Under the pieces are notes generated by a model, which saw only the letters and a list, made by a program, of their open reading frames with translations, searched no databases and had not been told where the DNA came from. This document shows positions 1,469 to 27,811 of a stretch of 27,811 nucleotides of DNA, in pieces; the stretch's first letter is position 1; every line of letters begins with the position of its first letter. A program made the translations under genes and the position numbers. Source of the DNA: a virus; IMG/VR virus record IMGVR_UViG_3300030085_000150, positions 1-27,811 of that record; one strand, given 5' to 3'.

Positions 1469-2378
1469 CGTATTTGCAGACAGAGGTTTCCAGCGTATCG
1501 ACAAAGCTGTTAAACAATCTATCGTAATTGTTAAACAAGCTAAGCTCGGTCAGCGTGACGTATTGCCTACGTCGTGGAAACGTCTTAACAGAAACCTACT
1601 AGGTGGATTGCAAAAAGGCAAGCTTTATGTAGTTGCAGGCCGCCCCGGTGTGGGTAAGTCTGCGTTTAGCAACCAACTAATATTTGACGTACTTGACACT
1701 AACCCTGACAAGAACATTAGAGTATTATATTGGACTTTCGAGATGCCAGGTTACCAGCAGGTAATGCGTAGCGCATCGAAAGATGTAAGAAAAGAGATTG
1801 GTCAACTACTATCTGTAGACACACCACTCTCTGATGTAGACTTCAAGACGTATGCAAAGAAGGTACAGAAGTATGGGAACTATCCTATATACTTCAACAA
1901 TGTGCCTCGTACTATGGAGTTTATTATGAATACTAATGAGGAAGTGTTTAACAAGCACCCTAACGACACTGTGATCAACTTGTTTGACCACTCTCGTCTT
2001 GTTAGAGGTAATGAGGACACAGAACTGAAACGCTTGAACACGATTTCCAAAGGCTGCATGTGGCTGCAGTCAAAGCTAGGCACAATCAACATATTGTTGT
2101 CGCAGCTGAATCGTAACATCGAGCAAGAGCACCGTGCTAAAAACCAATACCAACCGTTACTAACTGACTTGTTCGGTGGTGACAGTATTGGTCAGGATGC
2201 GCATGTGGTTATGATACTTAACAGGCCTTACGACCTGTACGGTATTACAGAATCATACTGCAACGAGGATCCTAGAGGTTTGCTAGCTGTGCATGTCGAG
2301 AAGAACCGTGATGGTTTGCTAGGCATGATTGGCTACGAGGCAGACATGAGCACATTTACAATCAAAGAACGTACGTGA
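1428..2378 (+). CDS. dnaB: DnaB-like replicative helicase (ATPase domain only)
   Basis: 316 residues matching the RecA-fold C-terminal domain of DnaB-family helicases. Walker A is GRPGVGKS at residues 71-78. The next segment, WTFEMP, matches the DnaB FSLEMS region. Walker B is NLFDH, with D187. The LSQLNR motif follows, then DLFGGDSIGQDAHVVMILNR, which corresponds to the conserved SxxIEQDAD-VVM segment, and EKNRDGLLG near the C-terminus corresponds to the KxRNGP arginine-finger/DNA-loop region. The protein is about 130-150 residues shorter than cellular DnaB because it lacks the N-terminal hairpin domain that binds primase. Its likely role is unwinding at the phage replication fork with the primase encoded at 5160. 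The 3' end overlaps the next start in a GTGA arrangement. Confidence 0.92.
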   Translation: MEQNQKPELQESSDVFADRGFQRIDKAVKQSIVIVKQAKLGQRDVLPTSWKRLNRNLLGGLQKGKLYVVAGRPGVGKSAFSNQLIFDVLDTNPDKNIRVLYWTFEMPGYQQVMRSASKDVRKEIGQLLSVDTPLSDVDFKTYAKKVQKYGNYPIYFNNVPRTMEFIMNTNEEVFNKHPNDTVINLFDHSRLVRGNEDTELKRLNTISKGCMWLQSKLGTINILLSQLNRNIEQEHRAKNQYQPLLTDLFGGDSIGQDAHVVMILNRPYDLYGITESYCNEDPRGLLAVHVEKNRDGLLGMIGYEADMSTFTIKERT

Positions 2379-3229
2379 TAGACAAAGTCTTGCGAAAGAC
2401 TTTTATTGTCAGACCCTCTGGTAGGTCTACTGACTTTATTAGTCCTAGCTTTGGCTATGGTTGTCTGTTTGACTGCAGTTATTGTTACATGAAACGACAT
2501 AGACCTGATGGTTTATCAGTTGCTACTAACACTAACGACATTCTTACAGAGATTAACAATCACGCCTTCTTTACTCCTGTAGACAAGCCGAATCAGACAC
2601 ATCCTAGATTTACTACTTATGACATTAGTTGCAACGAGGACTTTGCATTGCATGCAAAATACCACGAGTGGGAAAAGATCTTTGAGTTTTTCAGAGACCA
2701 TCCTATTGCTATGGCAAGTTTTGCTACTAAGTATGTAAACGATACATTCCTGAGCTACAATCCGCAGTTCAAGGTTCGTATCAGGTACAGTTTGATGCCA
2801 CAGAAAATGGCTGATGTACACGAGAAGAACACATCTACAATCATAGATAGGATACAAGCTATCAACAGATTTGTAGATGCGGGCTATGATGTTCACATAA
2901 ACTTTAGTCCTGTCATTGTATATGACGGTTGGCTAGATGACTATGCAGAACTATTTAGTCTTATTGATGACAATGTTAGATGGAAGGAGCAGGTATTTGC
3001 AGAGGTTATATTCTTGACACACAATTTCAAGAAGCATATTGTAAACCTTGGCAAACATCCTGATGCAGAAGTCACATTGTGGACGCCAGACATACAAGAG
3101 GATAAGAACTCTGAGTATGGAGGTAAGAATATTAGATATAATCACGAGCTAAAACGTCAGTTTATAGCCGAGTTTATAGAGTTACACGATAAAATAATCC
3201 CTTGGAATAAAATCCGTTACATTTTTTAA
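2375..3229 (+). CDS. Radical SAM protein resembling spore photoproduct lyase
   Basis: 284 residues starting at a GTG that overlaps the helicase stop codon. The radical-SAM iron-sulphur motif is GYGCLFDCSYC, a CxxxCxxC with C30, C34 and C37. About 49 residues later YDISCNEDFALHAKYHEW carries C86. In spore photoproduct lyases a cysteine about 43 residues after the cluster (C141 in Bacillus subtilis, from memory) donates the hydrogen atom, within a similar S/A-C-x-S/E-D context. The following SFATKY also resembles the lyase FVTKF segment. I therefore favour a SplB-like photolesion-repair or nucleobase-radical enzyme over a generic radical SAM protein. Its place inside the replication operon fits a DNA substrate. 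The substrate itself is unknown, and the protein is shorter than SplB (about 340 residues). Confidence 0.78.
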   Translation: MIDKVLRKTFIVRPSGRSTDFISPSFGYGCLFDCSYCYMKRHRPDGLSVATNTNDILTEINNHAFFTPVDKPNQTHPRFTTYDISCNEDFALHAKYHEWEKIFEFFRDHPIAMASFATKYVNDTFLSYNPQFKVRIRYSLMPQKMADVHEKNTSTIIDRIQAINRFVDAGYDVHINFSPVIVYDGWLDDYAELFSLIDDNVRWKEQVFAEVIFLTHNFKKHIVNLGKHPDAEVTLWTPDIQEDKNSEYGGKNIRYNHELKRQFIAEFIELHDKIIPWNKIRYIF

Positions 3230-6934: not shown

Positions 6935-7199
6935 TTATATCCGTGTCCTTTACAGCCATACCGAAGTACATGGTGTGTTTGTAAGATGGACAGGTTCTCA
7001 CTACAACAGTTTCCATTACGTCGCTGTAAATTGGTGGGGTCATCCTAATCCAGAGGACTACAAAGATTCAAGTAAAATCTGGAGGATTGACCACGTTAAT
7101 AGTAACGGTGCAAATCGTGTAAAGCCTATAGATGAGCGATACATGGAAAGTGAATTATTAGAATGTTTAGCTAACCTAAAAAAACTTGTATTAAAATGA
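6885..7199 (+). CDS. Unknown 104-residue protein, possible SH3-like barrel
   Basis: It starts inside the previous gene and ends in an ATGA overlap with the rIIA-like gene, so it is probably translationally coupled to both. After a basic lead (KIQKWQNNLKKGDYIRVLYS), the sequence alternates short strands: GVFVRWTG, FHYVAVNWWGHPN, KIWRIDHV. This pattern suggests a small beta-barrel of SH3/KOW-like type, which often binds nucleic acid or protein. That is a fold guess from the hydrophobic pattern, and no named family is recognised. Confidence 0.65.
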   Translation: MRLSKIQKWQNNLKKGDYIRVLYSHTEVHGVFVRWTGSHYNSFHYVAVNWWGHPNPEDYKDSSKIWRIDHVNSNGANRVKPIDERYMESELLECLANLKKLVLK

Positions 7200-9931
7200 G
7201 TATCAAAACAATTGACAAACAGATCAAAGGATCTGAAGGCCTTGCTAAGAAGATTAACAAGGGCGCAGAACGAATGGTGTTCGACATTTTGCAGTCGACT
7301 CAGTATTCTACACCGATACCATCTACGATCCGTGAGCTTGCAACCAATGCATGTGACTCACAGCGTGAGAAGGAGATTGCTATAGAGATACTAGAAGGCA
7401 GAGCAAAGCCAGAAGACTATTACATTACTCGCAATGGTGCGCAGTATGAAGACAGTAACTTTGATGAGAGTTACTATGACCTAGAGTATTTGTCTAGACA
7501 CTTGAAGCACATTGACATTGTGTATCAAGAAGGCGAAGGTACTGGGTATTGCGACACTGTTAGTATTACAGACTATGGTGTTGGTATTGGTGCACGTCGT
7601 CTAGAGGGTGTGTTGGAGCTCGGTTATTCTACCAAGCGTAACACATCAGAGAACTTCGGTGCATTCGGTCTAGGTGCCAAGGTTGCATTGTCTACTGGTG
7701 TAGACTTTTACACTATTGACACTGTGCACAACGGTAGAAGGTTTAAGATGAACTGCTACAATTACAAGACAGACTTTATTGTACCGTCTTTTAATCCTAA
7801 ATTAGGACAGCCTAATCCTCACATTACACTAAGCGATGGAACGAAAGTGTTTTATGAAGAGGCTGACACTAGAAACCGTACTACTATATCGTTTGGTGTA
7901 AAACGTCACCACCGTAGAGACTATCGTAATGCTGTAGAAGAGCAGTTGATGTACTTTGACAACGTTAGATTTAAGCGTATTAACGAGTCTGGGTATGAAG
8001 ATACTATGCCTTTTCAGCCAGAGATTCTTTACAACTCTGACAACCTAATCATCTCAGACACATACCTGTTTGCTAAACCTCACATTGTACTTACAAAGGA
8101 CAAAGGTGGTAGCACAGGTGTTAACTACGGCTTTATTGATTTCCGTGAGTTGGAGATGGAGCAGATGTGGGGCCCTATTGCATTCAAGTGTCCAGCCCGT
8201 CAAGTTATGACTGACGATGATGGTAACGAGATTGTATTGCAAGAGGGTGTCGATGTGACTCCGTCACGCGAGAAGGTGATATGGAATGAGCATACCAAAG
8301 AGTACATTTTGTCTGTTATCAAAGCAGCTGCAGAAGAGGCTACAGAAATGGTACAGGATAGCTTGCAGCAAGAAGATTTTGTATCATGGATACTTGCATG
8401 TCAAGAGGTCTTGAACAAAGCTGACAGCGGTAGTGCACTAGGTCGTATTGCTAATATTATTGACAGAGATGCTTTGAAGCCAGCTTTTGCGCCAGATCCT
8501 ACTATCACAAATGGTTCTGTTAGCAAGGTGTTTGAGAAGATGACTGTTATGCATATTACTAAGCTGCGAGACTACAAGACTGGCAAAGATGAGGTAAAGC
8601 GTGAGGATGCTAAAAGCTATGCAGGTTTCTCAGAGACTAGTATCTACCTGAAGACTGATGAGAACTTTAACAAGATGAAAGACATCTATCTTAATCATCT
8701 TGCAGGTGGTCCTATCATTGTTATTAGCAAAGACAAAGCAGAGCTGCCTGAGAAGATTCGTAACATGGCACCAGGTGACTACAAGAAGAGTGCAATTGCT
8801 GCATACAACAAGATTATTGCTAAGCGTAATCGTGTGTGGGAATTGTTGGAAGAGTCTCAGTACACTAATAGCTATGACGATGTAGTTGTTGATCCTGACT
8901 GGCTAGAAGAGTACAAGCAAGATGCTAGTGCTGCAGAAGAGATTGCTAAGTTTGACAATCTATCTCCAGAGGATCGTCGTAAGATAGAAGAGCGCATGGT
9001 TGCGTATACTTTTAGACACAATGCTAACTACTGGCGTGATCCAAACAATAGAAAGCGCTATACTCTAGACAAGATCGAGCCAAAGGTCAAAGACTTGATG
9101 AAGACTGAGCGTACTACTTACTATGGTACGAAAGCAGACGAAGAGCTTTTGACAGTTGCTTGTGGTGTTTTGCATGAGTATGCCCCAACTCGTAAAAAGG
9201 TTTATCCTAATATAAGCTATTGGCATAAGGATGCAGACAGTCCAGTGTATTTCTTTGACACACCACCTGTGAGTCATAGAGACCACAATGGCAAATGGTA
9301 TTCATGGTCTATAGATGATGAAGTCAATGTTGACTTTGATACGCCACAGCTTATTAGAGTTTCACAGTCTAATGTTAAACACATTACTATGAATCCTAAT
9401 GTCAAGCACATCAGCGAATTCTTTTTACAACTAACAGATAACGGAGGATATACTATGGACAACTATGCAATTAAATGGTACACTGGTCAAAAAGTTAAAG
9501 CGATCAGAAACAAGACGTACCTATACTGTCTAAAAGACATCAACAGAGACTTGTTTGATAAGTATGCTAAAGTTTATGAAGCTGCGTCTGCAGACCAGGG
9601 CGCTAGCAGCTGGGTTCAGAACAGTGAAATCTATGGAACTATGGACAAGATTATGCAGTTCCAAGAGTTTGTAGAGAATACAGATGATGCTGATGCTATC
9701 AAACAAAAGTCTAGAGAATTGTTTGTTCTTGACATACCGGAGTCGGTTGCTCAAGACAAAGAAGTGATCGATGCATTCAACGAGCTCGAAGAGTTCAGCG
9801 GAGGCATACATGTAATGCTTAATAGCATTCATGGAATTGACTATGCTCCTGATGATAACCGCAACTTAGATGCGGATCTTATCAAGGAGATTATGGTCTA
9901 CCTTGAAGCCAAGGATAGACTAAATTGGTAA
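7196..9931 (+). CDS. rIIA: GHKL ATPase, rIIA-like protein
   Basis: 911 residues. The N-terminal GHKL (Bergerat) ATP-binding fold is complete: N-box IRELATNACDS with E47, N51 and D54, G1 box ITDYGVGI with D126, and G2 box GAFGLGAK at residues 155-162. GHKL folds occur in Hsp90, MutL, gyrase B and phage rIIA. The spacing and the large uncharacterised remainder fit rIIA-like phage proteins. The later two thirds are charged and aspartate/asparagine-rich without a recognised domain. T4 rIIA acts near the membrane and blocks the RexAB exclusion system; the mechanism here is unknown. It is the last gene of the primase unit. A hairpin follows 9 bases after the stop, and the rIIB-like gene lies next. 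Confidence 0.85.
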   Translation: MSIKTIDKQIKGSEGLAKKINKGAERMVFDILQSTQYSTPIPSTIRELATNACDSQREKEIAIEILEGRAKPEDYYITRNGAQYEDSNFDESYYDLEYLSRHLKHIDIVYQEGEGTGYCDTVSITDYGVGIGARRLEGVLELGYSTKRNTSENFGAFGLGAKVALSTGVDFYTIDTVHNGRRFKMNCYNYKTDFIVPSFNPKLGQPNPHITLSDGTKVFYEEADTRNRTTISFGVKRHHRRDYRNAVEEQLMYFDNVRFKRINESGYEDTMPFQPEILYNSDNLIISDTYLFAKPHIVLTKDKGGSTGVNYGFIDFRELEMEQMWGPIAFKCPARQVMTDDDGNEIVLQEGVDVTPSREKVIWNEHTKEYILSVIKAAAEEATEMVQDSLQQEDFVSWILACQEVLNKADSGSALGRIANIIDRDALKPAFAPDPTITNGSVSKVFEKMTVMHITKLRDYKTGKDEVKREDAKSYAGFSETSIYLKTDENFNKMKDIYLNHLAGGPIIVISKDKAELPEKIRNMAPGDYKKSAIAAYNKIIAKRNRVWELLEESQYTNSYDDVVVDPDWLEEYKQDASAAEEIAKFDNLSPEDRRKIEERMVAYTFRHNANYWRDPNNRKRYTLDKIEPKVKDLMKTERTTYYGTKADEELLTVACGVLHEYAPTRKKVYPNISYWHKDADSPVYFFDTPPVSHRDHNGKWYSWSIDDEVNVDFDTPQLIRVSQSNVKHITMNPNVKHISEFFLQLTDNGGYTMDNYAIKWYTGQKVKAIRNKTYLYCLKDINRDLFDKYAKVYEAASADQGASSWVQNSEIYGTMDKIMQFQEFVENTDDADAIKQKSRELFVLDIPESVAQDKEVIDAFNELEEFSGGIHVMLNSIHGIDYAPDDNRNLDADLIKEIMVYLEAKDRLNW

Positions 9932-10013: not shown

Positions 10014-11183
10014 ATGATTACAATTAATGTGATTGAGGATCAGATCTCTGGTTCTTACGGCGACACACCGTTTTGTGTCAACTACACTGAAAGCACATAC
10101 AAAAGTATGATGGCTTTGTACGACAGACAAGATGATGTTGAGTCGATGGAGGAGTACAATCAGCTCATGGAAGAGTTCGCTGCACTCACGGTTCAGGACT
10201 ACAAGTCTACTGTCGAAACAGAATGTCCTTACATTCATGTCAACGAGTTTACTAACGAGTTCTTTCTTAAGCACAATGGAGTAGTCTCTAGCGTGCCTAT
10301 GCCACAGGCTCTTGTAGATCGTATTCTTGCGTCTATAGACAAAGGTGTAGACTTTATGCCTTTGGTAAAGATGTGGATTCGTTTCTTGCGTAACCCTATC
10401 TTGTCAGAAAAGATGGACGATGGTAAAGGTGAAGAATTTGCTAAGCGTTTCTTCAACTTTATTAACCTAGAGTATGTGCACCCACAACTCAAGGAGCAGC
10501 TTATGGAAGATCATGGCTTGAGCGAAGAAGTTGCTGAGCAACGCGCTACTATGTACCAAATGAAGATTACTAAAGAGGGTCTTTTGAATGGCTACAAAGT
10601 GTCTCGTGAGATTTTACATGAGTACAACAGAGAGACAGGTGAGGAAGTTCCTCGTTACAAGCGTACATTCAACCCTGATACAGGTGAGATTGAGAGCGAT
10701 GGTCTGCCACAACATGTAGAGCATCGTTTGTTTGAGCCTGCAGTTATGGGTAGCCAAGGTGACGCATTCTCTTGTGAGGGCCCTAACGGTTTCCCTGGCA
10801 ACGGACACTTTATCAAGGTAGGTTGTACACACCGTCTACCAGATTGGTCTTATGTCAACACTAACGACATGCAGTCTTGTGTTAAGGGCTTGCACTTCGG
10901 TGGCCTTAAATACATTGCATTCTACTCAGGTGAGATTCACAACATCTTTGTAGATCCTATGCATATCGGTGCCGTGCCTGACGATGAGACAGGTGCAATT
11001 CGTTGTTTGCAATACTTTGTGCACTCTTCTCTTGCAGGTGTTAACGGTTCTATCTACCATAGTTCTACTTATGCAGCTAAGACTGACGAAGAGTGGGAAG
11101 AAATGCGTAAAGAAGCTGTCCAAGCGTTTAGCGAAGAGAAGCTTAGCATCGATAAGATGACTGCAGAGATCAACGCTCTGTAA
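10014..11183 (+). CDS. rIIB: rIIB-like protein
   Basis: 389 residues. The central segment has MWIRFLRNPILS and then a short linker to ITKEGLLNGYKVSRE (from I185), matching the T4 rIIB pattern of a small helical domain followed by 'T-x-D-G-x-x-x-A/G-Y-K'. Later, QSCVKGLHFGGLKYIAFY (C289, H294) corresponds to the conserved C-S-x-G-L-H-V segment of rIIB. The intervening region (about residues 225-285) is glycine/asparagine-rich. T4 rIIB works with rIIA, and here the GHKL rIIA-like gene is directly upstream, supporting a functional pair. It sits alone between two hairpins, so it may be transcribed separately from rIIA or by readthrough. The C-terminus is a charged helix (EEWEEMRKEAVQAFSEEK). Confidence 0.75.
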   Translation: MITINVIEDQISGSYGDTPFCVNYTESTYKSMMALYDRQDDVESMEEYNQLMEEFAALTVQDYKSTVETECPYIHVNEFTNEFFLKHNGVVSSVPMPQALVDRILASIDKGVDFMPLVKMWIRFLRNPILSEKMDDGKGEEFAKRFFNFINLEYVHPQLKEQLMEDHGLSEEVAEQRATMYQMKITKEGLLNGYKVSREILHEYNRETGEEVPRYKRTFNPDTGEIESDGLPQHVEHRLFEPAVMGSQGDAFSCEGPNGFPGNGHFIKVGCTHRLPDWSYVNTNDMQSCVKGLHFGGLKYIAFYSGEIHNIFVDPMHIGAVPDDETGAIRCLQYFVHSSLAGVNGSIYHSSTYAAKTDEEWEEMRKEAVQAFSEEKLSIDKMTAEINAL

Positions 11184-13676: not shown

Positions 13677-14537
13677 CTATCCTACGTAATAATTTTTTAA
13701 ATCTGTTTCTATGGCTACCCTAGAGGATTGAATAGAGTTATAAAATATCAACTCTTGAACATCTGAGTTAAGAAACAATGCATTGCCTCCTGCTTGATTC
13801 CTACCTAATAATCTAAAGGCAGGCCAATCATCTGATTTAGTGCCTGTGCCTACAGCACTTCCAGCATTAATAAATTGACTAATATTATCGCTTCCATCTC
13901 TTTGAACAGCATATATAGCTCCTGTTCCATTAGTAAGAGCGCTAGATGCTGTAAATGATGCACCTCCAAAAATTCTAACTTGAGTATCACCTCCTGATGT
14001 AATTCTTATCCTATCATTTTCATTTGAATTACTGTTAATTAAAACACCAGTGCTACTGCTAGTACCTTGATTTGACTCAATAGCAGAAACAAAGTACCAA
14101 TCATCAACACCTGTTATAGTAGTGCCAAAATCCATTTCATTGGTTTCTGATTTTACAAAACGAAGAGCAGGCTTTCCTTGAGCACCTGCTGTAATTACAG
14201 AGGTGGAGCTACCAATATATATTTGAGGTTGCTTAGAAGCACTACCCTGACTAAATCTTCTGTTATTACCGCTTTGATCGTACCAATCTGTTACAAATCC
14301 GTCATTGCTTCCGCAAAATGATTGTATTGCGGCAGTGTCTAGATCTCCATTAGCATCAAATCCTATATCTTGAGGAGATCCTCCTCCAGCTGATCTAACA
14401 GTAATAGCAGGCCCAGAGTACGAGGCAGTAAGTCTCCTTAAAGAAACTGCTGCTTCTGCCCCTGAATACGTGTCAAGCAAACCGACAAACGCTTCACCTT
14501 CAAAAGGTTTTGTTATGCCTAGACCTAGTCCTAACAT
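13677..14537 (-). CDS. Arabinofuranosidase-like tail/receptor-binding candidate
   Basis: 286 residues. The stretches AVSLRRLTASYSGPAITVRS, QDIGFDANGDLDTAAIQSF, and GSNDGFVTDWYDQSGNNRRF match the concanavalin-like domain found in the alpha-L-arabinofuranosidase B family and in many phage tail proteins. The rest is small, serine/glycine-rich and beta-type (DDWYFVSAIES, SDVQELIFYNS), as expected of a jelly-roll. The short start MLGLGLGITKPFEGE is common in phage structural proteins. It is more likely a carbohydrate-binding tail or decoration protein than a secreted enzyme. There is no signal peptide. The start codon shares a base with the stop of the 95-residue gene (TAATG). Confidence 0.72.
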   Translation of the reverse strand: MLGLGLGITKPFEGEAFVGLLDTYSGAEAAVSLRRLTASYSGPAITVRSAGGGSPQDIGFDANGDLDTAAIQSFCGSNDGFVTDWYDQSGNNRRFSQGSASKQPQIYIGSSTSVITAGAQGKPALRFVKSETNEMDFGTTITGVDDWYFVSAIESNQGTSSSTGVLINSNSNENDRIRITSGGDTQVRIFGGASFTASSALTNGTGAIYAVQRDGSDNISQFINAGSAVGTGTKSDDWPAFRLLGRNQAGGNALFLNSDVQELIFYNSIQSSRVAIETDLKNYYVG

Positions 14538-17800: not shown

Positions 17801-19307
17801 CTAGCCTCTTTACATCTAATGTAGGTTGCTTTATAGGACTAGCTTCCGCTTCTCTTTGCTTCTCTTTTATAATACCTCTTAATGATTTTAGAGTGTCTAG
17901 TGCGTCTAGATCTCTTTTCATCTGGTACATCTCTGATAATAGCCCTGGCATTTTGCTTACGTCATTTTCGCTAGCAGCTTTTATCAAATTATTATACTTA
18001 CCTTCTAGTTTAGATATGTGTTCTGCATTATACTTTACAAAGTTTACAAGGTCTTCTACTTTTTTTATTTTAGTTAGTGACCTTTTTAGTGCTTCTTGTC
18101 TCTCTAGGGCGTCTTCTTTTGCTTTTCTCTGATCTGCAGTTTCTTCAGGCATATTTTTTATAGACCTAAGCTCTGCTTCTACTCTTACACGTATTTCGTT
18201 TCCTAGTTTTACAATGTTTTGCTCTCCTTTACTTTGCTGTCTGTAAGAACTTATAGGATTTATCATTTCAGAAGAACGTAGCTGTCCTAAGAACATTTCT
18301 TGTGCTAGTATTTCTGCAGTAGAAGGTGTTGCAGTTATACCTAGGCGGTTTAACATCTTTGCAAACTCTCTAAATATCTGATTTATTATTACTTGCAATC
18401 TGCTAGGATTTTTTCTAGTAATCTTAGCTCCTTCCATACCTATAGCTGTAGCAAGTACCTCTTTATCTAGCCTTTCACCTGACAACTCAGGGTACTTTTG
18501 TTGCACCTGACTGTATAAATCTGTGCCCCGTAGCTCTGAAATTGCTCTAGCAACTACAGGATTCTCTACGCCGAGCATGTCTATGTATATGTGACCGAAC
18601 TCGTGGTACACTGTATCTTCCTTAACTCCTTCAGCATTAAGTCTTACCGTTACGGGCTTACCTGCCACTTTAGCATCTACCTGACCTAAAACCTCTAGAG
18701 TTTCATCCATCACAGTTTCTACTTGTATACCTGCTTTTGCAAATGCATTTTGTAGATGTGTAACTTTTTCTTGTGTTGCCTGCTCTTCTTCTTGTAACAT
18801 ATCAGACATACGGCTTTGGTCTGATGTGTTTTCTGATAAAGCTATTAGACTAATCAACTCTTCTTCAGTCATAGTCTTTTCATAGTCTATCTCTCTTTCT
18901 AGTAAATAGTTCTCTAGCTCTTCTCTTTTTGTAAAAGATGCTTCAGGTTTTATTGTACCATTTGCAGGTATTGACTTTAGTATCTCTTCATTTATCTCAA
19001 AAGAATGCAACTTGTTAGCCTTTGTACTAAACGTTGGTGGTGTCTTTTTTATAAACTTGTACGATACTAGTCCTGGGTATTGCTTGTCTATCCTGTCTAG
19101 TTCTCGTAGCCTAGGCATTTGATTTCTCATGTCAGGACCTTGTACTACATAAAGCTTGTTGTTGTACTGCAGAACTAATCCATTATCTCGCAGTATTTCG
19201 TAAAACTTTCTTGCAGTTCTTTTTTCTGGAGCTGTATCATCTATGTACCCGTATAACTCTGTATACAGTTTACTTACTTTACCGTTTAAATAATATTTAC
19301 ACGCCAT
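14850..19307 (-). CDS. Giant virion-type protein with HEFGH zinc-peptidase motif
   Basis: 1485 residues. VYHEFGHIYIDML carries HEFGH at residues 235-239, an HEXXH zinc-peptidase signature (H235, E236, H239). DKEVLATAIGMEG follows about 44 residues later, with E283 a candidate third ligand, as in gluzincins. Residues of about 370-420 are a long charged helix. A hydrophobic segment IVAAMAIVAAL (about residues 1346-1360) could cross a membrane or bury in a capsid assembly. The C-terminus is basic (QRSRTPEEATKWFNK). Giant proteins of this type in crAss-like phages lie beside the virion RNA polymerase and are packaged. It starts 3 bases after the polymerase stop (TAA TCA ATG) in the same reading frame. 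Its N-terminus shares a motif with the polymerase. A catalytic peptidase role is likely but unproven. Confidence 0.85.
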   Translation of the reverse strand: MACKYYLNGKVSKLYTELYGYIDDTAPEKRTARKFYEILRDNGLVLQYNNKLYVVQGPDMRNQMPRLRELDRIDKQYPGLVSYKFIKKTPPTFSTKANKLHSFEINEEILKSIPANGTIKPEASFTKREELENYLLEREIDYEKTMTEEELISLIALSENTSDQSRMSDMLQEEEQATQEKVTHLQNAFAKAGIQVETVMDETLEVLGQVDAKVAGKPVTVRLNAEGVKEDTVYHEFGHIYIDMLGVENPVVARAISELRGTDLYSQVQQKYPELSGERLDKEVLATAIGMEGAKITRKNPSRLQVIINQIFREFAKMLNRLGITATPSTAEILAQEMFLGQLRSSEMINPISSYRQQSKGEQNIVKLGNEIRVRVEAELRSIKNMPEETADQRKAKEDALERQEALKRSLTKIKKVEDLVNFVKYNAEHISKLEGKYNNLIKAASENDVSKMPGLLSEMYQMKRDLDALDTLKSLRGIIKEKQREAEASPIKQPTLDVKRLATMEERIAAMLNVADELEYRYQKDIIPMMADSLIEHHNVNVDTELQSIIDNIENKGRWRSALSSTDPDLRELRNRRDEGKLSEEEFVEERTKLAVQKVKNKMIPTRQHLINELSAAYKDKSGYSYMLDPLIYSNDQAIQLFAKLLRTANIKKNDRTLDFKTDLNEAYTEFAQGQGQFNVEALNDDLVEEIEIAAYKDGKKQPVKVLSIVQPTDLAKYNAAEREMYKSLAKKYGKPQRADYESQEDFDAAKTNWSKNIDTVKLYNNAVDAWFSNNSEGIEGWRQELKSMDSAIGRQKALVAKLKGSDNTVQYELAFGKLEAMVKERARNITPKGTPRGPLAKPKMSLYTNPKWAKIQADPRLKKYYDFVIQEHRKAQDMIGRDRMHKNSWDKYSYLMPSIRKEGIDRLKEQGVWKSAKDALSEAFTLQATDDMYGKYNSISGELEKSVPVYYTNIVDAKDISRDVASSLYQFRDMAHNFAEKSQIVGTAMVMRDLMLNREVLATGSSGGMIMSQLAKQLGIKTPQLQKGESNTVKHLTEFIDQQLFGQQEIKVNLGGVDMNKAINSLNTFTAISSLSFNFLQAANQTILDNLTNLQEGIAGEFYNAKDIAWAKSTYLSEGAGIRDIGKFVPESKLGKAIELFDALVEVTDREGKRIVGGKGRKLADVGNLMSLQAAAEHEMAGTRMLALLHATEALDSNGKAIMNDNGKPANLWDMLIIDERGKMSIDPRVANVTKNDITMQLGGISRRTNQTKGNFDRSMLERRWYGKAIMLFRRYFNPGFRRRFGHGEPVHVDEELGTVTQGMYMSFITMLQEAYDAKSINVKAVYDDMTEVEKQNVKRTLMELGSIVAAMAIVAALSKIDDDDETWVSNFMLYQAKRYQTEMMQWNPVFGYKDIVRMAKSPAATIRPMENGLGLVEQIAFYELPYAVGMPIDPKHIYYQRRTSRFNKGDRKIRKNIEDLLPVVKGIQRSRTPEEATKWFNK

Positions 19308-19310
19308 TGA

Positions 19311-22300
19311 TTATAGTTTACAAAGTTTTGTAGGCTGTTCTATGCTTTCTGGCACTTCTTGTATTGCATTAGCTACATCTGTATATCTTTTCATAGTTGC
19401 TCCAATAGCAGGCTGTTCTACAACGCCAAGATTGCTAGATACTAAACTTTCAGAATTACTTCTATTGCTAAGAATTTCGTGCACTCTATTTCTTTGCCCT
19501 AAAGGTTGTAGTTTCTTGTATGTAGAGCTATTTTCTGTGGAACTTTCTAGCATGTATAGTACAGGACCATTGGGAGAGTAAGATACAAAATATGAAGGAA
19601 CTCCTAAATCATTAGCAATTGCTTTATTGCTCATAACGATTGTATCGTTAAAAGATTTTAGTTTCTGTGTTTGTAGTAAGGGTGCTCCTCCAGGGCTAGC
19701 TGTACCAAACTGTCTTACAAAGTCGTTTTCAAATCCTTCAAAATATCCCATTAGATTCATACTCTTCTGCTCTTGTGTAAAAAATTCTAGAGGAGTAATG
19801 TCTGACTGATCTGCCGTCATTATTCTTGTATCAAATACTTCTATCGGCACTAAGTCTATATAAGCACCTGGCCCAGGAGCAAATCCAGAACTTAGCAGTT
19901 GGTTAGATACTAACATTCTACCAAACTTTTTAATATCGTCTACTTCATCAACACTATTAGGATCATTAGCAAACTTTCTAGGACTCCTTAGAAGGTCTAG
20001 CAATCCTTCTGTAAACATGTTTTTGTCTGCAGATGTAGTCTCATAGGTGGTGTCAAAGTCTATTGTAAATATAGTCTGACCAACATCATGATTGGCTTTG
20101 CTAGGTCTTAGCTTTTGCACAAATGGATTGTTTGCAAGTTTAGGATACTGACGTTGCATTCTTTCTAGCCTTGTGCCTATATTGTTTAAACGATTAGTGT
20201 ACATAGCGTTAAATGCTTCCTGTGACATGTAGCTTGCAAGAGGACTTTTAGGACTAGCCATTATTTTTAAAACTAGCGCAGTGTCTATAAACTTGTGCTG
20301 TGCAGCAGTTAGTTTAGTTTTACCAAGCCTTAGTTTTAGCTCCTCTTTAAATGTATAGAAAGCTACGCTGTTATTTATAAATCCTGCCTCTGCTGCTGCA
20401 TTTAATGATGTTTGTCTAATACTATCATATGCAGTTGATGTTGGATATATGTTTAGTTCTAAGAAAGCCTCTGTTCCGTCTATAAATCCTGCTGCATTTT
20501 TTAGAAACTCTCTTCTATTTTCATTGTAGGCTACTATACTAGACATCTCATTTACATTTTCTAGTGTATCAGGAGTTATGAGCTGGTTAAAGTTTTGAAG
20601 TTCTTGCCCCTGCTTATGTAATATTTCAAAAGTATTTAAGTATTCTATTTGTTGCAGTGCTTGTTGCTCTGTAAGATCTTTATAGTTTAGCTGTGCATCA
20701 TCTTGTAACTGCATACTTTCCATACTAGATATACCTTTTCTAGCAGCTTTTACTTTAGCTACTGTTCTAAGTTCAGCTAAAGCTTTATTTACTCCTTTCC
20801 TTATAGAAATCTCCTCGTTTTGTGCTATTTCTACTGCTCTTTTTATACCAGGCTGGGCAACAAAGTGCACTGCATCTTCTATTCTAGCTCCCATACTCAA
20901 CATTAACCCTGATACCGGGGCAGTCATAAAGTTGTCATTTATGTCTACGTGTATAGGTTTCTTACCAGCATCTACTGCAGCATTTAGATATATAGACATC
21001 ATCTGATCAATAAATCTACCTTCTATATCTTTTATTACTCCTACTTCGTTGTATCTAAATTCATCTATTTCAAAACTGTTTATTACAGATAGGGGCTGTG
21101 TAGTTAGAACATTGTGTCCAGCTAAGAAATTAGCCCATGTACCTGTTTGCCTTTGACCAGTCTTGTTACGTTTTTCCATTTGTATTTCTACAAGTGGGTG
21201 GTTTATACCATACTCTGTAGATGTTGTTCTTAGCTTATTTGCTAAATTTTCTAACACAGGATTATCTAGAGGATTTAGAACTTCTACTAAGTGTTCTTTA
21301 GACGTTAGAACAGTATCTAGCATATCATAGATTCTAGCGTCTCTTTGAGCTCTGTTAGGATTTTTATCGCTATAGTTAGGTTTAACTATTTGCAGTTTAC
21401 CATCTACAACTTCTGTCTCAGGCTGTATAATGTACATTTTATCGACATCAAAATCCGATCCCATTTGTTTTGTAACACCCCCAGGAACCATAATTGCTTT
21501 ATCGTGTGACTCAGGTAAGAATCCTACTACCTTAACAGGCAAAGAAGAGTTCTTTCCTTGGTGTGGTACACGATACCCAATAGCTTCTAGTAGTTTAGGA
21601 TCTACGTCTTCTATGTTTGTATCAGCAGGTAGTCCTAGCAGACTAGCTTTGATTCTAACTTCTGCTCTATCTGTACCATCGTACATCTTAAGCTCGCTGT
21701 CAACAATGTGTCCTCCAGCTTCTGCAATTTGTACAAGCTCTTTACCTCTTATACGTTGGTTAAATATGCCATTTTTAAACGTGCTTAAGAATATTTGTTG
21801 GAACTTACGCTCATAGCTAGGGAAAGATAACGGTGCTCTAAATCTCCAGTTAAATTTACCATCAGGTACAATGTCTAGAGCTTTTACATAGTTGTTAGAT
21901 AGTTGCTTATCTTTTACCTGTTCGTATATTCTCTTTCTAACCTGCTGTAGATAGTTGTATTTAGCTTCTGCATATTCTACAGTTCCAGGATTTTGCTTTC
22001 GTAGCTTTGTAATTCCTAATTCGTTTTCTAACTTTTTAGTATCTTCTACAATGTTAGCAGATATAGATTCGTGGTAAGTATCAAATATCTTTTTACCAGG
22101 CATTCCATTTTCATACGCTGTATTCATCTTAATGTTTGCAAGAGAGTTCTTTCTAACTTGTCTAGACATTAAAATAGTTTTTGATTTTTTTCTAGGTATG
22201 ATTTGTGGTATTCTAAGTTTGTTAGAATCCATTACCATAGGATTGCTGACATCTAATTCTTCTACAGCTAGTACATCTTGCACATTAATCTTAGATCCTT

Positions 22301-25300
22301 TTGTTGCAGTTTTAGGATTAATTACATGTACACCTGCTTCAAACGCATTGTGCATCTTTTTAAACTCAGGAAACTCGTTTGCTATAGCATTTGTAATAGT
22401 CATATACGAATTCTTATTCATTGTAAGAGTCATTGTGCCATTACGCAATGTTAGCTCTTCGTGATAAGGCTTTATAGGATAAATAGGCCTAGCATTTCCA
22501 TTGTTATCTACATAGCCTAAACCTGCTTTTTCGTTTTCATATGCCTGCTCATCTAACGCCGTCCAGCTTCCTAACCCCATTTGAATGCCACGGTACATGT
22601 CAATGCTTATAAATCCTTGCGCATCTGTTTTATCAAGTCCTTCTCCCTTAGGACTTAATGTAGCAGGTAGATAGCTTTCAGATATTTCTGAAGATATTTT
22701 TTCTGCTATTCTTTCTGCGTTTTCTTCTGCTACATTATCTCTTTTTAGGTCTGTTTTAATTGCAGCTTTTAAATTAGCTTTTTGTCTAACTACAACGCTC
22801 TTTGCCAGTTCTGTGTCTACAAAGTCAAAGTCTTCAACTGTTAACTCGTTATACGTAGGCATCATGCCGTAGTCAGACTCTGTATTATTGTTTAAGTACA
22901 GTTTCTGCCCAGGCGTTGTCAAAAGCGCCATACGTTTGTAGAAGTCTGCTTTGTTTTTTGCAAACGTAAATCCACCACGTAATAGTTTTACCATCTCCGC
23001 TCTACCTACAAAGTCGTTAAATACAAAGTCTTTTATAAAGGTGGTTTTTGTGGACATATCACTATGCACCTCTTGCTGCAGATTTATCTTAGTGTCAGCT
23101 ATTTTAGCTTTTATATCTTTTTCTGCCTTTTCTAAGAATCTATCTACTTTTTCTATTTGGTTTTCAAAGTAGTTATCAAGAATCTGCATCTCTTCAGGCT
23201 TGAGTACAGGATTACCTTGACTATCTTTTGATAGATATTCTTCTATTAAGTCAGATACTCTCAGTGGTCCTATGATTTCTGGGTCAGATAAATTATCTAT
23301 CTGTGACATTTTTAGCGTAAATGCATTACCTCTTCTATCAAAAGGGGTCTTGTCAAAATGATAACCTTCTATTAGCTGACTTGTATCGCCTGTTTCTTCT
23401 GCTTTGCTTACCTGTGCTTCTGCCTGAGTTTTACGAATATAGTCTTGCACCATCAGGCCTTTTATTATATCTTCTCTACTTACCTCTAGTTTATCATACC
23501 TAGGCTGCGTAATAAAGTGTAGCACACCTCTGTCTGCTTCTGTAGGCACAGCAAGTTTAGTATATTTTTGATTTGCATTATTTGCAAAAGCATTTAGTCT
23601 AAGTATTAATGACACTCTATCAGACTGGCTGTCGTAGTCATTTGTTTTACCTGGCTCTTTTATAGAGTCTAATGTCTCTACTTTAAATATGTTGTTCCTA
23701 AATTCAGGATCAGCTAGTGCAGCTAGTAGTACAGAATGATTCTTGTATGTTCCTGGAGGATTGTAGAAAGGATCTTGTCGCATCTTTTCTAACATTGCAG
23801 TTCCATCTGTGCTTCGTAGAGACAGTGCTATTTCATCTAGTTGTGTAGCTTGATTTACTGGCCAATATTGTTTGTTTGTACCACTAATAAAAGCTCCTAC
23901 CTGTTGAGGGTCAAACAATGGTGCGTAGTCAGCAATTCGTGTAATAGTCTTGCCTTCTTCATCGTATATGTTTATACCCTTTTTAGCTATATTTACTAAA
24001 TTTGATATAGGCTTTTTAGTTCTATCAATAGTAGGGTTTATAAAAGTTTCAAATAAACTTCTACCATTTACAAGTTTATTGTCTACAAAAGTTCCTTTTT
24101 CAAATAGTTGCTGTAAATTGTTTTTTGTAGTGTCTAGTGTAGGACCATACTCCATACCTAGTGCCCATATGTATTCAGCTAGTGCGTCAGTCATCTCTGC
24201 AGTTACTTCATTTCGTGCAGCACGGTTTCTAGCTGTTTGCATTCTTCCTATTGCAGTTTCTGCATCTCGTATCTTAGATTCTATAGGGGTTATAGACCCG
24301 TCTTCAGCTTGTTTATACAGAGCTCTAGGGTTTTTAGCCTGTCTTTCTACAGAGTTTTCTTTGTATCGACTTCTATACCTTCTAGCAATTGACCCTTCAT
24401 TAGGGTTAAACATACTTGTTTTTGTTTTTACAGAAATTTCTCCTTCAGCAGGACCAGGTATAACCTCTCTTTCTATTTTAAGCATTAAGAAATCTTTGTA
24501 CGCAAGTGAAAAGTTTGCAAAGATTGCTGCTTTTTGTTGGTCTGTAGCACTATTAAGTCTCTCTACTATAGGTGTAACTTCTGGTCTGTATGCAGCCATG
24601 TAAGATAACTTAGCTAGCATCTGATTAAAATCTTGTGAGTCTACTACTGCTTCTGTCATTAGACTGTATACTTTATCCACAGTCATGCTAACCTCTGCTT
24701 TCAATATAGAGTTAGGATCTCTATACTTTATGCCTGCTAGTGCACTTTTTGCTTGTGCAGACAGTTTGTTTCTAGGGTTTTCTTGCAGTCTAGATATGCC
24801 GTAAATTCTTACAGGTGTGTCGTCTTCCTCTACAAGCTCTTCTGTATCCTCTTTAAACTGTATATTATGTGCTTCTAGCCTATCTCGTAGTTTAGATCTA
24901 TATCCAAACACAACGACATTACCATTAGAGTCTACCTGGTCATTCCAGTTGTCGTACATTTTAAAGAATATCCTGCCATAGTTAGCAAGTGCAAGGCCTT
25001 GTTCAGCTGCATCTTGTTTAGCTCTAGCAAAGCCAAAGTTTTTGTACACGTTATATATGTCAAATGCTATTGCCTGCGCTGACAAATCTGTAGTCCGTAA
25101 ATTAGGAAAGCTTTTGGTAAGCATAATCATTGCTAGCGGACCATTGTCTACAACCTTACCATCTACAATTGTAGGAGACAACAAAGATTTTGCTTTAAAC
25201 TGATCATTTCTTCTAAGAGTATCTGTAACTATATCAGATGCTATGTCTAGTATTTCTAGCTCTAACTTAGGATCCATGCCCTGAGAAGATTTTACAAAGT

Positions 25301-26147
25301 CAGACAAAGGTCTAATTTCTCCTTTTAGGTTCATTACCTCAAGTTTCCCGTCACCAGATATAATTTTAGGCTCACCGTTTTTATCTGTAAATATGCTGCT
25401 TTGCGAACTAGCTTGCTGTGCTGCTTTATTAATTTCAGATAGTTTAGAATCAATAAATTCTGAAAGCCCAGGTTTACCATTAACTATATTTAAATCTTTA
25501 ACTCCGTACAGTTCGTTATTAAAATCTTCAGTGCTGTTAGCTAGTTTAAGAACTTTGTAAAAAGGGTGATCTTCAACTTGTCCTTCATCTAAACTATGAT
25601 CCCAGTTTAATGTGCTATTAAGTATATCTGTAACTTCTTTTATTGCTTGACTGTTGTAGTTTACATTTATTTGGTTTTTAACATTACCTTTTATTAGCCA
25701 AGTATTTCCTGCTAAATTTTCACCAAATCCAAACATTGGTGTCCAAGCTCCTTTTTGTTTACCATCTGTTCCAGCAGAGCTTCTATAAAAGCCTACTTTT
25801 ACACCGTTAACATTTACTATGATAGGAAACCTTTTACCTACATTAAAGGTTGTATCTGATGCCATTATACCCGATTCTATAAGAGCTGGTATTCTTTCTT
25901 CAAAAGGGAGATTAGATATTTTATCAACCTCACTAGCTTGTATTGATTGCGTACTAGGAGTATCCCATTTTGCACCAAACCAGTCTGTAAACTTTTTAAG
26001 TCTTAACTCTGCGTAAGTTTGATACGCAAGAGCAGGACCTAATTTTTTTTCGTTAGATAAAGAGTCAAAGAGTTCTGACCGCTTTCCGTTAGCAGCAGTT
26101 ATACCAGTAATTTGTCCTTCTTTATTTTTTATTGGTCTACAAGCCAT
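19311..26147 (-). CDS. Giant two-barrel virion RNA polymerase, crAss-like
   Basis: 2278 residues. KQMGSDFDVDKMYIIQPE places DFDVD at residues 1565-1569. This DxDxD in a DFDxD context is the magnesium-binding catalytic motif of the YonO/QDE-1-type two-barrel RNA polymerases, including the crAss-like phage phi14:2 virion polymerase (about 2180 residues, from memory). A lysine-rich stretch (PRKKSKTILMSRQVRKN, about residues 1317-1335) lies upstream where the second double-psi barrel would be expected. The protein should be packaged, enter the host with DNA and transcribe early phage genes. An in-frame TAA lies just before the ATG at 26147, fixing the start. Upstream is another giant gene; downstream is the metallopeptidase-like giant. 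No single-subunit T7-type polymerase motifs were seen. Confidence 0.9.
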   Translation of the reverse strand: MACRPIKNKEGQITGITAANGKRSELFDSLSNEKKLGPALAYQTYAELRLKKFTDWFGAKWDTPSTQSIQASEVDKISNLPFEERIPALIESGIMASDTTFNVGKRFPIIVNVNGVKVGFYRSSAGTDGKQKGAWTPMFGFGENLAGNTWLIKGNVKNQINVNYNSQAIKEVTDILNSTLNWDHSLDEGQVEDHPFYKVLKLANSTEDFNNELYGVKDLNIVNGKPGLSEFIDSKLSEINKAAQQASSQSSIFTDKNGEPKIISGDGKLEVMNLKGEIRPLSDFVKSSQGMDPKLELEILDIASDIVTDTLRRNDQFKAKSLLSPTIVDGKVVDNGPLAMIMLTKSFPNLRTTDLSAQAIAFDIYNVYKNFGFARAKQDAAEQGLALANYGRIFFKMYDNWNDQVDSNGNVVVFGYRSKLRDRLEAHNIQFKEDTEELVEEDDTPVRIYGISRLQENPRNKLSAQAKSALAGIKYRDPNSILKAEVSMTVDKVYSLMTEAVVDSQDFNQMLAKLSYMAAYRPEVTPIVERLNSATDQQKAAIFANFSLAYKDFLMLKIEREVIPGPAEGEISVKTKTSMFNPNEGSIARRYRSRYKENSVERQAKNPRALYKQAEDGSITPIESKIRDAETAIGRMQTARNRAARNEVTAEMTDALAEYIWALGMEYGPTLDTTKNNLQQLFEKGTFVDNKLVNGRSLFETFINPTIDRTKKPISNLVNIAKKGINIYDEEGKTITRIADYAPLFDPQQVGAFISGTNKQYWPVNQATQLDEIALSLRSTDGTAMLEKMRQDPFYNPPGTYKNHSVLLAALADPEFRNNIFKVETLDSIKEPGKTNDYDSQSDRVSLILRLNAFANNANQKYTKLAVPTEADRGVLHFITQPRYDKLEVSREDIIKGLMVQDYIRKTQAEAQVSKAEETGDTSQLIEGYHFDKTPFDRRGNAFTLKMSQIDNLSDPEIIGPLRVSDLIEEYLSKDSQGNPVLKPEEMQILDNYFENQIEKVDRFLEKAEKDIKAKIADTKINLQQEVHSDMSTKTTFIKDFVFNDFVGRAEMVKLLRGGFTFAKNKADFYKRMALLTTPGQKLYLNNNTESDYGMMPTYNELTVEDFDFVDTELAKSVVVRQKANLKAAIKTDLKRDNVAEENAERIAEKISSEISESYLPATLSPKGEGLDKTDAQGFISIDMYRGIQMGLGSWTALDEQAYENEKAGLGYVDNNGNARPIYPIKPYHEELTLRNGTMTLTMNKNSYMTITNAIANEFPEFKKMHNAFEAGVHVINPKTATKGSKINVQDVLAVEELDVSNPMVMDSNKLRIPQIIPRKKSKTILMSRQVRKNSLANIKMNTAYENGMPGKKIFDTYHESISANIVEDTKKLENELGITKLRKQNPGTVEYAEAKYNYLQQVRKRIYEQVKDKQLSNNYVKALDIVPDGKFNWRFRAPLSFPSYERKFQQIFLSTFKNGIFNQRIRGKELVQIAEAGGHIVDSELKMYDGTDRAEVRIKASLLGLPADTNIEDVDPKLLEAIGYRVPHQGKNSSLPVKVVGFLPESHDKAIMVPGGVTKQMGSDFDVDKMYIIQPETEVVDGKLQIVKPNYSDKNPNRAQRDARIYDMLDTVLTSKEHLVEVLNPLDNPVLENLANKLRTTSTEYGINHPLVEIQMEKRNKTGQRQTGTWANFLAGHNVLTTQPLSVINSFEIDEFRYNEVGVIKDIEGRFIDQMMSIYLNAAVDAGKKPIHVDINDNFMTAPVSGLMLSMGARIEDAVHFVAQPGIKRAVEIAQNEEISIRKGVNKALAELRTVAKVKAARKGISSMESMQLQDDAQLNYKDLTEQQALQQIEYLNTFEILHKQGQELQNFNQLITPDTLENVNEMSSIVAYNENRREFLKNAAGFIDGTEAFLELNIYPTSTAYDSIRQTSLNAAAEAGFINNSVAFYTFKEELKLRLGKTKLTAAQHKFIDTALVLKIMASPKSPLASYMSQEAFNAMYTNRLNNIGTRLERMQRQYPKLANNPFVQKLRPSKANHDVGQTIFTIDFDTTYETTSADKNMFTEGLLDLLRSPRKFANDPNSVDEVDDIKKFGRMLVSNQLLSSGFAPGPGAYIDLVPIEVFDTRIMTADQSDITPLEFFTQEQKSMNLMGYFEGFENDFVRQFGTASPGGAPLLQTQKLKSFNDTIVMSNKAIANDLGVPSYFVSYSPNGPVLYMLESSTENSSTYKKLQPLGQRNRVHEILSNRSNSESLVSSNLGVVEQPAIGATMKRYTDVANAIQEVPESIEQPTKLCKL

Positions 26148-26161
26148 GTTTTATATTTTAC

Positions 26162-27811
26162 TTAAAATAATGCGCAATCCTGATCTAACTCATCTTTTGA
26201 TATATCTCCTAAAGGATCTTCTCCTAAAAGATTGTCTAGCTCAGAGTTAGATATGTCAGTCATAATTTTATTTTCTCCTATTTCTGATGCTACTTCTGCA
26301 GCATCGTCTTGTATATCTCCTAAACTAAACTCTACAGTAGGATTGTTAAAGATACTACCATTTACTAAACTTACATCTGTTGCTACAATAGAACTGTGGC
26401 CAAACCTTCCGTTTATAGTTCCTGTTTCTGTAGGACTAAATAGATAGTCTTGATATGAACTGTATTCTGTGTTAGTAATTCTAGAAGTATATGGAGCATC
26501 TAGGTTTGCTCTATCTACACTTACTTGGAATTTTTTAGTTTTTAAGAAATTCTTAAAGTCTGCTAGCATACCATCTTTTGCCATGGTTTCATACAGCTTT
26601 TTGTTATTAGGTATTACTGCAAACTTACCAGTGTCAGGATTAAATTTTACAAAGCTAAACGCAGGACTACCGTTGTTAGCTGCTTTAGCTATGTTCTCAG
26701 CATTTATACGTACCAGCTCTCCCGTTGCAGGGCTTTTGTATACCAAGTATTGTTGTCCATCTTTAAATTCTCCAAAGCTCAAGTAGGAAGGATTAGCTAT
26801 AGAGTCGTCAGCTTTACTGTGTGCCACAATCTCTTTAGCATTATCAAAGTTATTGTTCTTTAGATTATCTAGTACAGCATTTTGTGCCGCAGGTGTTAAC
26901 GCTGCTGTGTTACCTACTATAACCTTTGTACCATTATCACCACTATCTGGCGACTGTACAACAAATCCTACTTGACCAGAAGCTAGGTTGTTAAAGCTCT
27001 TAGGCCCTCTACTACTTGCAATGTCAGAGTCTAAGCTTGGGTCACCCGATAGCCATGATTTTTCACCTAGTGCATCACTTACTACTGCTATCTTTAACGG
27101 CTCTCCTTGCAATACATCGTTATTAAATATCTCTGCAGGGTTATTAAAGTAAGGTGCAGGGCTGTCTACGCCTTCTGTAACTCTTGTGTGGTTAACAGAT
27201 GCAGCACCTACTAGTTTGTCAGATATAGTAGAGGTTACTCGTTCTCCAGCAGCTAGCTTTCTTACAATGTTTGCTCTGTCTGTAGAGTCAGATGCTTCTA
27301 GCTTACCTATTCTTTGTCCACCTATCTTAACATACACAGGCACATCAGTTACATGGTCTAATGGACTTGCGTCTTCTCCATACTTCTGTACAAAGAAACT
27401 GTTTTCTATGATCTCAAACTCTACTTCTGTTCCTATAGGAGCATGTACAGCTAAGTTAGTGTCTGATATTAAGGGTGTGCCGTTAAAGTCATCATAGTTA
27501 GTTTCTGCTATACCGTTAGGAGTAACTACTAAAACGTATCTTTCGTTACCCTGTCTATCTATAATTTGCTGTATACCTGCTTCTGCAGAGTCTTTTGCCA
27601 TTTTAACAGATAAGCTTGGCCCTACATTCTTGTCAGGTGGAGGAACTGCAGTTGCAGATCTTATTTCTCTAAATCTATCTTGTGTTTCTTTTTCAAAAAC
27701 TAAAGCTTTACTAATTATTCTATTACCTCCATTAGGATCATTACCAACCGGTCTTGTACCTCGTATCTTGAAGATATTATCGTATAAAATTTTACCTGTT
27801 TTTTTGTTTTG
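26162..27811 (-). CDS. Giant virion-type protein, 5'-truncated by the window edge
   Basis: At least 549 residues. Reading minus-strand codons from the right edge gives an uninterrupted frame (…TGKILYDNIFKIRGTRPVG, then NDPNGGNRIIS…) that continues through the methionine at 27601, so that methionine is probably internal. Visible parts include DVPVYVKIGGQRIGKLEA, a strand-rich segment followed by IVRKLAAGERVTSTISDKLVG, and a long glycine/asparagine/serine-rich region. The C-terminus is acidic (SELDNLLGEDPLGDISKDEL, ending DCALF). It ends 14 bases before the polymerase start, in a different frame, and belongs to the same transcription unit. It is probably one of the large packaged proteins of the crAss-like module. 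The function is unknown. Confidence 0.85.
   Translation of the reverse strand, partial: QNKKTGKILYDNIFKIRGTRPVGNDPNGGNRIISKALVFEKETQDRFREIRSATAVPPPDKNVGPSLSVKMAKDSAEAGIQQIIDRQGNERYVLVVTPNGIAETNYDDFNGTPLISDTNLAVHAPIGTEVEFEIIENSFFVQKYGEDASPLDHVTDVPVYVKIGGQRIGKLEASDSTDRANIVRKLAAGERVTSTISDKLVGAASVNHTRVTEGVDSPAPYFNNPAEIFNNDVLQGEPLKIAVVSDALGEKSWLSGDPSLDSDIASSRGPKSFNNLASGQVGFVVQSPDSGDNGTKVIVGNTAALTPAAQNAVLDNLKNNNFDNAKEIVAHSKADDSIANPSYLSFGEFKDGQQYLVYKSPATGELVRINAENIAKAANNGSPAFSFVKFNPDTGKFAVIPNNKKLYETMAKDGMLADFKNFLKTKKFQVSVDRANLDAPYTSRITNTEYSSYQDYLFSPTETGTINGRFGHSSIVATDVSLVNGSIFNNPTVEFSLGDIQDDAAEVASEIGENKIMTDISNSELDNLLGEDPLGDISKDELDQDCALF

Follow-up and report, generated by a model that had tools for sequence, protein, structure and literature searches.

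Lone cysteines at the facing ends of a crAss-like virion RNA polymerase and its two cargo neighbours, and a likely disulfide-joined cargo train

In a fragment of a crAss-like phage and in its relatives, three giant proteins, here called A, B, and C, carry lone cysteines at the ends that face one another, and these cysteines are absent where the genes are fused. The middle protein, B, is identified as a single-chain, two-barrel RNA polymerase of a crAss-like phage; that it is carried in the virion, ejected, and used to transcribe early genes is taken from homology. Taken alone, the polymerase adds one more member to a known family. The cysteine pattern, its directionality, and its exchange with gene fusion are established here as features of the sequences. 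Their likely meaning is that the polymerase belongs to a disulfide-joined cargo train, A-B-C, but that disulfides form, when they do so, and what part they play in ejection are all inferred from sequence alone.

The window analysed is an IMG/VR fragment of 27,811 bases; the remaining genome, including the structural block (capsid, portal, and tail genes), lies beyond it. The left part of the window holds plus-strand replication genes (a helicase, a DnaB-like helicase, a Sak4-like protein, a primase, an exonuclease, and a uracil-DNA glycosylase), and the right part encodes the three giant minus-strand proteins C, B, and a partial A (Table 1). None of the three gave a convincing match in Pfam or PHROGs. 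C is homologous to gp65 of phage phi14:2 (E=9e-45), and A is homologous to the proteins in the gp67 position of relatives.

Table 1. Positions of the cargo proteins, polymerase motifs, and terminal cysteine codons within the window
Feature	Position	Strand	Remarks
C: gp65-like cargo protein P0002, 1485 aa	14850..19307	-	sole Cys is residue 3
C-side Cys codon, B/C junction (Cys3, TGT)	19299..19301	-	
B: virion RNA polymerase homologue P0001, 2278 aa	19311..26147	-	Cys at residues 3 and 2276 only
B-side Cys codon, B/C junction (Cys2276, TGT)	19320..19322	-	
Polymerase core, residues 1000-1850	20598..23150	-	model pLDDT 88.8; best PDB match 6VR4
D1726..K1729 (DAGK), candidate bridge-helix residues	20961..20972	-	alignments
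DFDVD catalytic metal-binding motif, residues 1565-1569	21441..21455	-	alignments
K1245, conserved Lys, candidate second-barrel lysine	22413..22415	-	alignments
K1226, candidate second-barrel lysine, conserved, upstream of DFDVD	22470..22472	-	alignment
Domain of ~180 aa inserted in B (about residues 64-247)	25407..25958	-	absent from nearest relative L023
B-side Cys codon, A/B junction (Cys3, TGT)	26139..26141	-	
A-side Cys codon, A/B junction (TGC)	26174..26176	-	
A: gp67-position cargo protein P0003, C-terminal 549 aa	26162..27811	-	5' end beyond window

An earlier sequence-only reading had picked out DFDVD in a 2278-residue protein as the mark of a crAss-like virion polymerase, citing its place about two thirds along the chain and its giant neighbours, as in phi14:2. 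The motif, its coordinates, and the protein size all held on minus-strand translation of the open reading frame. The relative position is 1565/2278 = 0.69 versus 1361/2180 = 0.62 in phi14:2 gp66, and the gene order gp67-gp66-gp65 is the same in both. Within its context, MGSDFDVDKMY, the motif aligns with DFDID 1361-1365 of phi14:2 gp66, and G1563, D1565, F1566, D1567, and D1569 are invariant in alignments of 18 and of 44 viral relatives; it is not a chance pentapeptide. The same alignments show K1245 and K1283 to be near-invariant in both, K1226 to be near-invariant in the larger one, D1726 to be invariant, and K1729 to be near-invariant in the smaller one. The candidate role of K1226 as a second-barrel lysine is assigned by analogy to two-barrel polymerases.

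The identification as a crAss-like virion polymerase also held, since both a profile search and structure prediction point to phi14:2 gp66. When the sequence of B was compared by phmmer with all solved structures, the sole significant match was phi14:2 gp66 (PDB 6VR4, E=1e-19), and a core profile built from 18 viral relatives matched 6VR4 end to end (profile positions 26-891, E=6e-170). In Foldseek, the top match of an AlphaFold2 model of the core (mean pLDDT 88.8) was 6VR4 (E=9e-31, TM 0.73 on query), followed by QDE-1, a two-barrel polymerase (E=5e-5). The presence of two double-psi barrels in B is supported indirectly, by the fold match and by conserved residues that include K1226, K1245, and K1283; the barrels were not traced, and the Asp-Asp distances were not measured. 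As for the phage group, the window groups with crAss-like loci, phi14:2 and crAss001 among them, on a tree of the polymerase. The remaining claim of the sequence-only reading, host-independent early transcription, is carried over by analogy from phi14:2 only, for which a polymerase that is present in virions and transcribes early genes, and early transcription resistant to rifampicin, have been reported (review PMC10136315).

What sets the three proteins of the window apart is where their cysteines lie. Together, the visible parts of A, B, and C contain 4 cysteines in 4312 residues, versus about 45 expected from the 1.04% Cys of the other genes in the window (P=7e-15 for 4 or fewer). The only visible cysteine of A is residue 546 of 549, 4 from the end; B has one at residue 3 and one at residue 2276, 3 from its C-terminal end; and C has one at residue 3. 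Thus, each side of the A/B boundary and each side of the B/C boundary has a single cysteine, and the one outer end that is visible, the C-terminus of C, has none. The N-terminus of A is outside the window, so that the outer end on that side is not covered.

The same arrangement was found among 68 non-redundant loci with a polymerase core, taken from viral contigs and named phages and sharing less than 70% core identity with each other. Terminal cysteines were scored in the last 10 residues for the end of B and in the first 10 for the start of C, and A was defined as the large open reading frame just upstream of B. Where the B and C genes are split, a C-terminal cysteine of B is present in 56/56 cases and an N-terminal cysteine of C in 52/53, the exception being a broken C gene (L001). 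Where A and B are split, the N-terminal cysteine of B is found in 30/30, a count that becomes 33/33 after three proteins with long N-termini proved to be separate from A, and the C-terminal cysteine of A is found in 21/23. The outer ends lack cysteine (A start 0/16, C end 0/50). Among control open reading frames of 300-1000 residues from the same loci, terminal cysteines occur in 4/91 and 7/91, and internal cysteines make up 0.055% of B and C versus 1.1% of the controls. The position of the terminal cysteine varies (3-8 residues from the start, 1-9 from the end), as do the residues beside it (MSC, MTFC, MAKKC, MKRC) and the codon, TGT or TGC; the cysteine alone is kept.

An independent sample of 63 more loci, drawn from contigs of viruses and of bacterial genomes and not used in forming the rule, agrees with it wherever there is a C module and the genes are unbroken. 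In this sample, cysteine is found at the end of B in 34/40, at the start of C in 36/40, at the end of C in 0/39, and at the end of fused proteins in 0/8. Three of the six misses at the end of B fit on closer inspection: in L125 and L126, the B gene is interrupted and its second part ends in cysteine, and in L151, the only cysteine lies 14 residues from the C-terminus. Short fragments account for the other three. The four misses at the start of C consist of three short fragments and one gene with a misplaced start (L152). The pattern is absent from some homologues that are in part MAG-derived, fragmented, or recoded (L196, L200, L205, L210, and L211), beside which no C module was found. A profile of C modules proved too diverse for scanning. 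As a separate observation, the polymerase genes of L125 and L126 have an interruption of several kilobases near the catalytic motif, possibly an intron or an intein.

Relatives often fuse A to B, B to C, or all three, and the fused boundaries have no terminal cysteine. The outer ends of the fusions lack it as well: B-C fusions end with cysteine in 0/9, and A-B fusions start with it in 0/22, with L018 unresolved. The fully fused marine-type proteins of 5.2-5.7 thousand residues contain no cysteine at all, save that L040 has a single one ahead of the start Met; a more distant fusion of 5005 residues (L081) has two internal cysteines. In Carjivirus communis, in which B and C are fused, only the A/B pair of cysteines is kept at the protein ends. 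On the polymerase core tree, fusion and cysteine switch together in 13 independent pairs (5 for the B/C boundary, 8 for A/B), with 0 opposing and 1 tie. This was a quick tree, and some of its branches are long. A short-profile search for a remnant of the terminal motifs at fused junctions found none. Cargo genes were also seen in two bacterial assemblies, a Chitinophaga sp. YR573 assembly (L217) that encodes a 5491-aa fusion without cysteine and a Spirosoma oryzae assembly (L215) with split cargo genes and terminal cysteines, and thus cultured Bacteroidota harbour phages or proviruses of this kind.

C of the window also has a zincin-type motif, HEFGH, at residues 235-239 (18591-18605, minus strand), and HExxH is present in 22/53 split C modules versus about 1% in shuffled sequence. 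The idea that this motif is a protease that processes the fused forms was rejected: with only 3/9 fused C modules and fewer than all split ones carrying it, the mechanism does not generally include it.

The rule holds at the level of the protein; as a sequence pattern, it survives both inversion of gene A and replacement of the polymerase. Gene A is encoded on the opposite strand in crAss001, DAC15, and cr112_1, yet the end of A and the start of B still have their cysteines. In phi17:2 (L106, 10997-24501), a profile search of the three proteins in cargo position found no polymerase of this kind. Its gp36 is recognisable as C (E=4e-62) and has cysteine only at residue 3, and the sole cysteine of gp39, in the A position, is the last residue. 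The middle place is taken by gp38, an unrelated protein of 517 residues with cysteines only at 4 and 516, and gene 37 sits between the genes for gp38 and gp36.

A lone cysteine beside every separable joint, none at the free ends, avoidance elsewhere, and absence on fusion are most simply caused by a covalent end-to-end bond, that is, a disulfide. In this model, A-B-C would be a three-protein cargo train with the polymerase as its middle link, in which the C-terminal cysteine of A would pair with the N-terminal cysteine of B, and the C-terminal cysteine of B with the N-terminal cysteine of C. The bonds would form after lysis or in an oxidising virion. The separately made proteins would then go through the narrow tail as a single covalently linked thread, in a fixed order and ratio, and the host cytoplasm would reduce the bonds so that the proteins separate. 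In lineages with fused genes, which lack the cysteines, peptide bonds would give the same thread. For crAss001, gp47, gp49, and gp50 have been detected in the virion by mass spectrometry, tail parts are disulfide-linked, and cargo must thread, partly unfolded, through constrictions of less than 50 A (PMC10172136). A bolder reading, more likely than not, is that crAss-like phages as a group join separate injection proteins by terminal disulfides into a thread of about 5,500 residues, a reversible chemical substitute for gene fusion whose middle link is exchangeable (the polymerase, or the unrelated protein in phi17:2).

However, no disulfide between these proteins has been observed here, and it remains possible that the ends pair with themselves or bind another partner. 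In addition, phages of the anaerobic gut keep the terminal cysteines even though oxidation is slower there, and some of their cargo proteins carry 10-30 internal cysteines. Polymerases with 17-30 cysteines were seen in L018, L019, L095, L097, and L128, which are possibly from rumen or gut samples, with the terminal cysteine kept in most; the relaxed avoidance may reflect oxygen-free habitats.

Other explanations can be considered. B might be an ordinary crAss-like virion polymerase and the terminal cysteines merely a trait of the family, for instance a signal that marks each separately made cargo protein for packaging. In favour of this, many B and C proteins begin with MAC(K/R), and ejected proteins generally avoid cysteine: N4 gp50/51/52 and T7 gp15/16 have none. 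However, A needs packaging too, yet it has an N-terminal cysteine in none of the 16 cases, nor does C have one at its C-terminus in any of the 50. Furthermore, the cysteines flank inner boundaries only and are absent where the genes are fused, and the flanking residues are variable, with only the cysteine conserved. This reading is unlikely, though still possible. Also unlikely but possible is a metal bound by the terminal cysteines of several copies (for example, a Cys4 zinc site made by two A-B pairs), which would bundle the chains without covalent bonds. Thiols on both sides of the boundaries and a cargo that is probably multi-copy (6 copies each, as an example, PMC10172136) would suit such a site, but there is one cysteine per end and no CxxC, and the positions shift by several residues, which fits a flexible disulfide better.

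The least likely alternative is that the terminal cysteine codons have a cause in the DNA, whether translational coupling, a recombination site, or intein relics of a split fused gene. Most of the split genes are indeed adjacent, with B-C gaps that are mostly -13 to +27 nt, and some crAss-like phages commonly carry inteins (PMC7886860). However, gene A on the opposite strand keeps its cysteine in the three phages named above, phi17:2 has another gene between those for gp38 and gp36, and both codons are used at variable positions. In addition, the proteins stop a few residues from the cysteine, and so there is no room for intein halves. This origin was rejected on the basis of the inverted gene orders and the variable positions.

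The proposed disulfide-joined train has close counterparts to be compared with. The nearest is phi14:2 (Akihdevirus, Crassvirales), whose gp66 (6VR4), like B, is a single chain with DFDxD and the same fold (2180 versus 2278 aa), differing in that the two are only about 23% identical. Its cargo cysteines fall as in the window: gp67 has only 1797, the last residue; gp66 has 3 and 2179 of 2180; and gp65 has only 3. In crAss001 (Kehishuvirus), gp47, gp50, and gp49 are likewise three giant cargo proteins with cysteines at the same inner ends, whereas gene A (gp47) is the inverted one and gp50 has one extra internal cysteine. Carjivirus communis gp44/gp45 and the fusions of 5.2-5.7 thousand residues share the order of the B and C modules, which they make as one or two chains. 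The ejection proteins of N4 and T7 are also large virion proteins that pass the tail and are almost free of cysteine, but they lack the terminal-cysteine pattern. The N4 polymerase belongs to a different family. Inter-protein disulfides are known in mature particles, in the tail of phage Milano and in the tail barrel and fibre hubs of crAss001, and in Milano, function requires that some of them be reduced (PMC10811340, PMC10172136). These bonds hold a standing structure, whereas the proposed ones would stand in for gene fusion by linking ejected proteins end to end. No mention of the terminal-cysteine rule was found in the open literature searched, which did not cover the Nature paper on phi14:2 gp66.

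It is not settled how giant proteins are transferred in order from the phage head to the cell, and few viruses of the human gut are as abundant as crAss-like phages. Should the terminal cysteines form a bond between proteins, the three would leave as one covalent thread that is opened by the reducing chemistry of the host. The pattern makes a sharp prediction for the cultured phages phi14:2, crAss001, and DAC15. It also provides a simple sequence rule by which cargo proteins in unannotated phage genomes can be spotted and put in order.

Several other features of the window may be mentioned. The inserted domain near the N-terminus of B is 51-64% identical to domains in phi14:2 gp67, where the counterpart of about 180 residues sits in that phage, and in L092, and it has a weaker match in phi17:2 gp39. 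It is far more alike than the rest of these proteins, and thus it has probably been exchanged recently. A search of viral contigs with this domain found no relatives, the known ones coming from the collected loci and phage records, and its structure prediction was of low confidence (pLDDT 46). Within the replication block, 2375-3229 (plus strand) encodes a radical-SAM protein that resembles spore photoproduct lyase (PF20903, E=9e-26). Adjoining rIIA- and rIIB-like proteins are encoded at 7196-9931 and 10014-11183 (plus strand; PHROGs E=1e-19 and 1e-6). Finally, 13677-14537 (minus strand), adjoining the cargo genes, encodes a small protein of virion type that contains an arabinofuranosidase-like domain (PF09206, E=4e-7).
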